NCBI GenBank assembly: GCA_903995005.1 | Contig: CAJEZV010000008.1 | Coordinates: 1-44,868, forward strand | Length of the DNA stretch: 44,868 nt | DNA from: an uncultured beta proteobacterium | GTDB lineage: Bacteria > Pseudomonadota > Gammaproteobacteria > Burkholderiales > Burkholderiaceae | Reading direction: 5' to 3' | Shown: piece after piece, positions 23,793 to 40,784 of the stretch | Layout: each line of letters opens with the position of its first letter | Position numbering within the stretch: the stretch's first letter is position 1 | Position numbers and translations under genes: made by a program | The notes under the pieces: model-generated | Seen by the model: the letters and a program-made list of their open reading frames with translations, nothing else | Databases searched by the model: none | Told to the model about the DNA's origin: nothing

Positions 23793-24032
23793 ATGAACAA
23801 CAAAATTCAACTACTTCAGGATCCATTTCTCAATGCCCTGCGTAAAGAGCACATTCCTGTGTCGATCTATCTCGTCAATGGCATTAAGTTACAGGGCAAT
23901 ATTGAATCCTTTGATCAATATGTTGTACTACTACGCAACACAGTTACACAGATGGTTTACAAACATGCAATCTCGACGATCGTTCCTGCTCGTGCGATTG
24001 ATTTCCGCATAGAAGAAGCTAGCCCTGTATAA
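23793..24032 (+). CDS. hfq: RNA chaperone Hfq
   Basis: Hexameric Sm-like RNA chaperone for small-RNA regulation. 79 residues: Sm1 [25 protein letters not shown] and Sm2 [11 protein letters not shown], with Gln8, Phe (Q-x-x-F), and the KH motif (YKHAIST) intact. AAGGAG precedes the ATG. The C-terminal tail after the Sm core is short, ten or so residues, so the long disordered tail of enteric Hfq is missing. The 3' end probably overlaps the real start of hflX (see that entry). Confidence 0.98.
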
Positions 24033-39530: not shown

Positions 39531-40241
39531 ATGAACCAAGATCAACTTAAACAAATGGTAGGTGAGGCGGCGCGCGATGAAGTCTTAAAGCTGCCGGCAG
39601 GACAAATTTTAGGTGTTGGTACAGGCTCAACTGCTAACTGCTTTATCGATGCATTGGCTGCACATAAAGATCATTTTGCAGGAACGGTATCGAGTTCTAA
39701 CGCAACAACAGAGCGTTTGCTTAAGCACGGCTTTCGGGTTTTAGATCCCAATGATGTAGCCATCTTGCCTGCCTATGTCGATGGTGCCGATGAAATCGAT
39801 CCAGCAGGGCATATGATTAAAGGTGGTGGTGGGGCGCTTACGCGAGAAAAAATTATTGCCTCCATGGCTAAGCAATTTATTTGCATTTGTGATTCCTCTA
39901 AGCAAGTGCCAGTACTGGGTAACTTTGTACTTCCAGTAGAAATCATTCCCTTAGCAAAAGGTGTGGTCAGTAGAGAGCTGGAGAAATTCGGTGGTAAGGT
40001 CACTCTACGCTTGGCTAAAAGCACGCGAGTAGATTTAAATCAAACCCCAAGTGAACCGTTCGTTACCGATAACGGAGGGTGGATATTGGATGTCGCAGGC
40101 TTAAAGATTGCAGATCCAATCAAGATGGAAGCGCAAATCAATCAGATTGCTGGCGTGATCACAGTAGGCTTATTTGCAAAAGAGAAGGCCAACATCTTAT
40201 TAGTCAGTAACGCCTCTGGCGTTAGCCGCATATCACTCTAG
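39531..40241 (+). CDS. rpiA: Ribose-5-phosphate isomerase A
   Basis: Interconverts ribose-5-phosphate and ribulose-5-phosphate. 236 residues with GVGTGSTANCFIDAL, DGADEIDPAGHMIKGGGGALTREKI and SSKQVPVLG. It is divergent from tal, so the two genes of the same pathway may share control. Transcription may end at the hairpin at 40261-40287, which on this strand is followed only by GTTTG. Confidence 0.97.
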   Translation: MNQDQLKQMVGEAARDEVLKLPAGQILGVGTGSTANCFIDALAAHKDHFAGTVSSSNATTERLLKHGFRVLDPNDVAILPAYVDGADEIDPAGHMIKGGGGALTREKIIASMAKQFICICDSSKQVPVLGNFVLPVEIIPLAKGVVSRELEKFGGKVTLRLAKSTRVDLNQTPSEPFVTDNGGWILDVAGLKIADPIKMEAQINQIAGVITVGLFAKEKANILLVSNASGVSRISL

Positions 40242-40256
40242 TTAGAAAAAGGAAAT

Positions 40257-40287
40257 AAAAAACCCGACGGGGCTTCCCCATCGGGTT
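40257..40287 (-). terminator. Strong intrinsic terminator, minus strand
   Basis: AACCCGA (40261-40267) pairs with TCGGGTT (40281-40287), with an inner GGGG/CCCC stem and CTT loop. On the minus strand the stem runs into a T-run (40262-40257 plus more T after one A). It ends the small RNA described next, and weakly rpiA on the plus strand. Confidence 0.85.
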
Positions 40288-40414
40288 GTTTGCCATGGAT
40301 TGCATGGCGCAGGCGCTCGGAAGAGATTTAGTTCCTTAGCCTATGAGCATATAGATACGCTCATTTCTGAGTGGCTTTCGCCAATGTAGTGGGACACAAA
40401 ATCTGTCTCACCAC
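40257..40414 (-). ncRNA. Candidate structured small RNA, about 158 nt, class unknown
   Basis: In the 270-base gap between rpiA and yggX, the minus strand has an almost ideal promoter (next entry), then a row of hairpins, then a strong terminator, with no ORF worth calling. Hairpins in 5' to 3' order: GTGG-GACA-type stem at 40414-40389; TGGC-GAAA-GCCA with GNRA tetraloop at 40383-40372; ATGAGC/GCTCAT at 40364-40343; GGAA/TTCC around 40337-40319; GCCATG/CATGGC at 40308-40292; terminator at 40287-40261. The predicted start coincides with the base of the first stem. Hfq is encoded in the window, so an Hfq-binding trans-acting RNA is possible. I do not recognise 6S, SRP, tmRNA or RNase P features. 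Confidence 0.6.
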
Positions 40415-40420
40415 GATTAC

Positions 40421-40449
40421 ATCCTATGCCTGCCATTTCAGAGTGTCAA
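40421..40449 (-). promoter_or_regulatory. Promoter of the candidate small RNA
   Basis: On the minus strand a consensus -35 TTGACA (40449-40444), an exact 17-base spacer, and TAGGAT (40426-40421). It lies downstream of the yggX stop and points away from any coding gene. Start predicted at about 40414. Confidence 0.7.
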
Positions 40450-40511
40450 CAGCTGGAAACCAGTTTTAAAAATTTATTTATGCTGTCCCGCAGCAAGTTA
40501 GGTGAGGCTAT

Positions 40512-40784
40512 TTATTCAGCTGGTGGAACGTAGCCTTGCGCCATATCTGCGCCACCTTCAAAGAAGTATTTTTCAACTTGCTTCAGAAGGTACTGGCGAG
40601 CACGGGGGTCCGCCATATTGAGGCGGTTTTCATTAATCAACATAGTTTGATGCTTTAACCATGCAGCCCAAGCTTCTTTAGATACTTGATTCCAAATCTT
40701 TTTTCCAAGCTCACCAGGAAGCGGAGCGAAATCCATTCCTTCGGACTCTTTGTTGAGCTTGATACATTGAACCATGCGTGCCAT
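40512..40784 (-). CDS. yggX: Probable Fe(2+)-trafficking protein YggX
   Basis: Small protein implicated in protecting iron-sulphur clusters and intracellular iron handling. 90 residues, the family's usual length, with the conserved start MARMVQC (Cys7), [15 protein letters not shown], the block [30 protein letters not shown] and a C-terminal GYVPP. It follows argA on the minus strand after 22 bases, probably in one transcript. Confidence 0.96.

Follow-up and report, generated by a model that had tools for sequence, protein, structure and literature searches.

The RNA predicted on the minus strand between rpiA and yggX, in a 44,868-nucleotide stretch of DNA from an uncultured beta proteobacterium (hereafter the window), is HRC-28-1, a motif already published, and genome comparison suggests here that it has a promoter to itself and forms a separate gene instead of the tail of the yggX messenger beside it. 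We regard it as probable that HRC-28-1 is a freestanding gene with a sigma-70 type promoter and a terminator of its own, which moves as one unit and likely yields a folded RNA acting in trans; the gene reading draws on sequence and comparison, from which we also infer transcription itself. A motif so far listed as perhaps belonging to a 3' UTR would thereby become a candidate small-RNA gene that is directly testable.

Identity of the RNA

The neighbours of the RNA in the window are yggX (40512..40784, minus strand; Fe2+ trafficking protein, PF04362, Pfam 1.1e-42), which lies upstream on the same strand and is presumably the gene called PRK05408 elsewhere, and rpiA (39531..40241, plus strand; ribose-5-phosphate isomerase A, Pfam 3.2e-53), which is convergent. 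According to the passages on the motif in Brewer et al. (2021, RNA Biology, PMC8632094), HRC-28-1 has 33 examples, mostly from Polynucleobacter, with a PRK05408 gene upstream, rpiA downstream in the opposite orientation, and six stems, the final one being an intrinsic terminator; it is possibly a 3'-UTR element (section 23). The RNA analysed here occurs in Polynucleobacter (the five hits of the models in other genera were considered false), has yggX upstream and a convergent rpiA in the window and in 97 of 107 full-length copies, and consists of five hairpins plus a terminator. By this published description, that is, by genus, both neighbours and six stems, the window RNA is HRC-28-1. The promoter, the relocated copies and the covariation counts are added here; no promoter is named in the passages of PMC8632094 on this motif.

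With Rfam 15 at the gathering score, tRNA alone matched in the whole window, and a search of 40200-40520 with E values up to 10 gave three chance-like matches (best E, 0.64). The covariance model of 6S RNA (RF00013) had no match at the window RNA, in contrast to its matches in 15/15 same-genus relatives (14 over the cut-off; none in G000, an 80% complete assembly), and 6S is sited apart from the HRC-28-1 RNA in all eight relatives having both. These results agree with the earlier note, made from the letters of the window, which could match the RNA neither to 6S, SRP, tmRNA and RNase P nor to any common riboswitch; its term "unassigned", however, gives way to HRC-28-1, described in the motif survey named above, though no Rfam 15 family matches. 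Polynucleobacter-1 (RF01718), a structured RNA motif from Burkholderiales and fresh water in the relevant passage of Weinberg et al. (2010, PMC2864571), is a different RNA: its covariance model matched neither at the place of the RNA nor in G000, and among 13 genus genomes it matched one (G007), on another contig than the HRC-28-1 copy of that genome. Literature searches by name yielded no account of HRC-28-1 beyond PMC8632094, and searches on the freshwater genus Polynucleobacter yielded, among the matches listed (the best 20 of 58 in one search), no paper with a title pointing to small-RNA work beside the motif surveys PMC8632094 and PMC2864571.

Promoter, terminator and covarying fold

TTGACA, a 17-nt spacer and TAGGAT, which the earlier note had read on the minus strand, are present at 40449-40421. 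The -35 box (TTGACA, 40444..40449) and the -10 box (TAGGAT, 40421..40426) make up the best of the four promoter-like sites that were detected, with 10/12 matches. Throughout the 107 full-length copies (107 genomes), TTGAC-N16/17-TA[GA][GC]AT stands directly 5' of the RNA at a constant distance, with TTGAC kept in every copy, the -10 box reading TAGGAT in 97, TAGCAT in 6 and TAAGAT in 4, and a spacer of 17 nt in 88, as in the window, and of 16 nt in 19. Taken alone, the scans for promoters and terminators lie within chance (4 promoter-like sites against a mean of 4.6 in shuffles; 4 terminator-like sites against 3.2), whereas the conservation of the promoter in 107/107 copies lies beyond it. Among the 88 copies with the 17-nt spacer, mean pairwise identity was 0.90 in the -35 box, a value partly built in because these copies were picked by TTGAC in register, and 0.96 in the -10 box, as compared with 0.50 in the spacer and 0.33-0.38 in the DNA upstream of the promoter.

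Assuming the usual spacing from the -10 box, transcription would start near 40414, on the first paired base of hairpin 1 as the earlier note had predicted, and the HRC-28-1 transcript would comprise about 158 nt (40257..40414, minus strand). It would end at an intrinsic terminator likewise read beforehand, a 12-pair stem at 40261..40287 on the minus strand with T's running to 40257, and no coding gene lies downstream on this strand before the convergent rpiA, again as had been stated. The T-run measures 7 in 13/107 copies, 6 in 78/107 and less in 16/107. The reverse of the terminator, just past the rpiA stop, may also serve rpiA.

The covariance model R1, built on an alignment of 24 copies (A1), matched 40420-40257 with 173.3 bits, the window sequence being one of the 24 from which it was built. 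The predicted fold of the same segment had an energy of -67.2 kcal/mol, including the contribution of the terminator, against a shuffle mean of -41.9 (z, -5.19; 0/200 shuffles as good). The consecutive hairpins of the earlier note, including the TGGC-GAAA-GCCA hairpin and the GCCATG/CATGGC stem, are present as described, all on the minus strand. Hairpin 1 (40386..40414) bears the tip CAG-N5-GTG, found in 102/107 copies, and hairpin 2 (TGGC-GAAA-GCCA, 40372..40383) bears a GNRA tetraloop, found by pattern in 98/107 copies and by eye in three more, six being without it. Hairpin 3 (40343..40364) is a variable covarying stem with the loop TCTA, in which 8/9 pairs change on both sides; hairpin 4 (40311..40342) consists of two stacked helices with an internal loop; and hairpin 5 (40292..40308) is the GCCATG/CATGGC stem. 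Hairpins 1, 4 and 5 were obtained by folding, RNAalifold and covariation, and hairpin 2 by folding and covariation. Hairpin 2 is swapped for a different hairpin in three copies (L025, L063 and L147) and absent from another (L146).

RNAalifold on A1 gave 47 pairs, 18 of them with double changes. When 100 of the 107 copies were aligned to the model (A2; hairpin 4 counted as two helices), 34/47 pairs had changed on both sides and 98.3% of cells were paired, as against 7-16 pairs and 32-42% in slid-partner controls; this alignment leans to the model. In a sequence-only alignment of 97 distinct copies (97 of 98, one identical sequence being dropped), 98.4% of cells were paired (simulated mean, 76.7; sd, 2.6; maximum, 83.2), 28 pairs showed double changes (mean, 12.1; maximum, 18) and 296 cells did so (mean, 76; maximum, 166), values reached in none of 300 simulations along the tree, although such tests favour the structure somewhat since it was derived from 24 of the tested sequences. 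Moreover, compensatory double changes on single branches numbered 48, against a mean of 1.8 (maximum, 13) for random re-pairing. A strict, background-corrected test of individual pairs gave only one pair at E<0.05; for this and the tree simulations, nine copies (L092-L100) were set aside. Unpaired runs of at least 5 nt conserved at 90% were absent among the 100 copies, though shorter or lineage-specific seeds may exist. The copies gave no support for a conserved small ORF: their longest ORFs are 11-60 aa in length, and no start or frame is common to the 16 that were compared.

Distribution and relocated copies

As far as searched, the RNA appears confined to part of Polynucleobacter. BLASTN on 61 genomes (its own, 36 of the same genus and 24 from other families of the order) located the RNA stretch in its own genome and in 24/36 relatives from the genus; beyond the genus it gave a match of 30 bp (L026), rejected by eye because it looks coding and has no synteny. 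In 151 genus genomes, R1 found copies in 102 under stricter filters by which some weak matches were lost, and the 49 without a match (35 of 117 among good-quality genomes) suggest that the RNA is dispensable. Six further copies were found beyond the 102, and dropping one that is truncated at its 5' side (L024) gives the 107 full-length copies; ten duplicate loci of genomes already counted had likewise been dropped before counting. Each genome has one copy, save for overlapping echoes of R1 on the opposite strand (24-26 bits, six genomes), which were rejected as lying in the same spacer and overlapping the RNA itself.

Beyond the genus, R1 gave 36 matches in a family sample of 299 genomes; 33 fall inside Polynucleobacter, and the remaining three, all weak, belong to genus g44 (L089-L091) and were judged by eye to be terminators, one of them over a tRNA-like stretch. 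A broader model, R2, matched eight genus genomes, including this one, and two others among 399 genomes of the order; by eye, the latter two (L216 and L217) resemble gene 3' ends, of flagellin and gapA, with a terminator, and were rejected. In 24 genus genomes where R1 had found nothing, R2 matched weakly at four places (L218-L221; 20-24 bits), none of which was accepted: L219 is the yggX-rpiA gap of genome G111, and L220 lies in coding-looking DNA. At L218 (1440-1620; 24 bits), promoter-like and terminator-like sequences are seen by eye, possibly belonging to another small RNA. Among named genome records the core pattern was found in 53, all of Polynucleobacter or metagenome-assembled genomes labelled Burkholderiaceae or beta-proteobacterium, and among viral contigs in none. 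The RNA is retained in the record named P. necessarius PPGSP2, presumably an endosymbiont of ciliates.

The yggX-rpiA locus holds 97 of the 107 copies, all 3' of yggX on the same strand. The other ten are at three further loci, where promoter and RNA again stand together. Eight lie downstream of a same-strand PIN-domain gene and face a convergent cyclase-like gene, with an extra intervening ORF in one case (L097) and only a short remnant match to the cyclase-like gene in another (L099); seven copies at this locus have the GNRA loop although the stem of hairpin 2 is longer, and hairpin 3 does not keep its TCTA loop there. The ninth (L094) is located between azlD and a LysR-like gene and is followed by a convergent gene, and the tenth (L145) is located beside a cupin-like gene, LysR and cupin being named by eye. 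In both, the gene upstream of the promoter is divergent, so that no recognised gene there has the RNA as its 3' UTR; L145 does have an ORF of 54 aa and uncertain standing, on the same strand, in between. In the L145 copy hairpins 2 and 3 are kept, but the terminator hairpin differs and its T-run is just 3 long. Seven genomes having a relocated copy contain yggX and rpiA adjacent to each other without the RNA, and an eighth (L062) showed no rpiA next to its yggX, the check covering the relocated-copy genomes other than G148 and G120. The relocated copies serve as natural controls separating the RNA from yggX and rpiA.

In six genomes with the RNA elsewhere (L059-L061 and L064-L066), the rpiA beside yggX shares only 57-63% identity with that of the window, against 92-96% for yggX, as though an rpiA replacement had taken place; in deep branches of the genus without the RNA, rpiA is also about 54-67% identical to that of the window. 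A close relative (G111, locus L068; yggX, 93%; rpiA, 91%) contains only a short terminator in the gap, an apparent loss of the RNA. In a genome with a relocated copy (G011, locus L087), yggX looks broken, being recovered as two overlapping pieces and containing a stop.

Rival readings and mode of action

The RNA might instead be a structured 3' UTR or a terminator-linked stability element of the yggX mRNA, made without transcription of its own, which we consider unlikely. The possibility of a 3'-UTR element is raised in the passages on the motif in PMC8632094, and it suits the 97 copies trailing yggX, in which the -35 box lies 13-81 nt from the yggX stop (at most 17 nt in 32/97). Given such short gaps and, in the window, a minus strand on which the scan placed no terminator-like site from yggX up to the promoter, read-through from yggX is indeed likely at this locus, and eight of the ten relocated copies again lie behind a same-strand gene, that of the PIN domain. 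The conservation of the promoter in every full-length copy, next to upstream DNA that is not conserved, nevertheless argues against the 3'-UTR reading, as do the ten copies away from yggX, of which two have an upstream gene pointing the other way, and the seven genomes in which the RNA is relocated and the yggX-rpiA gap is empty of it. Very improbable is a role mainly as a bidirectional terminator between convergent genes; it would be consistent with a terminator hairpin next to the rpiA stop, at a distance of 1-33 nt in the 97 copies of this locus, and with the convergent gene that also follows at the PIN locus and in L094, but the five further covarying hairpins and the conserved promoter would be superfluous for it.

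With respect to mechanism, the main rival is an antisense sRNA that depends on Hfq and pairs with mRNAs via loops or linkers, a reading which we hold to be possible, though well short of probable. Like trans-acting sRNAs of this type, HRC-28-1 has its own putative promoter, an intrinsic terminator with a T-run and Hfq encoded in the genome; Hfq was found in 25/26 genomes, including all 16 genus genomes searched, nine of which carry the RNA. Hfq sRNAs tend to need about 7 U, however, and the T-run here is mostly 6, reaching 7 in only 13/107 copies; the long conserved unpaired run is also absent, none of at least 5 nt being conserved at 90%. Scarcely credible is a diverged 6S RNA or CsrA-sponge RNA. 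6S RNA is freestanding, of similar length and equipped with its own promoter, CsrB/RsmZ-type protein-sequestering RNAs are freestanding with several hairpins, and the length and promoter of HRC-28-1 fit such RNAs generally. Against this stand the absence of an RF00013 match here with the 6S of the genus at another place, and the search for CsrA/RsmA, which found it in none of 26 genomes (control positive in E. coli, B. subtilis and T. maritima).

Collectively, conservation, covariation and relocation of the whole unit support what the earlier note had proposed, namely a small-RNA gene that stands by itself and comprises a promoter, five hairpins and a terminator. In such a gene, the sigma-70 type promoter would drive a structured RNA, about 158 nt long, and an intrinsic terminator belonging to the gene would end it, the three parts being kept as a single unit that sits elsewhere in some genomes, and at the yggX locus read-through from yggX may add to the supply of the RNA. 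Since no unpaired run of 5 nt is conserved, the RNA probably works by way of its fold, perhaps together with a protein. Presumably, it would act in trans through the fixed tips CAG-N5-GTG and the GNRA loop, by protein binding or short loop contacts rather than by a long antisense seed; partner and mode of action are guesses. More specifically, and rather doubtfully, HRC-28-1 might be a relocatable regulatory RNA with transcription of its own, in which a protein recognises the conserved fold instead of a seed, in a manner distinct from that of CsrA sponges, ProQ-bound RNAs and 6S; if true, small-genome freshwater bacteria would have a protein-binding sRNA of a new kind. ProQ was found in 0/16 genus genomes and in 2/10 others. 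The hfq gene of this genome lies within the window itself, at 23814-23999.
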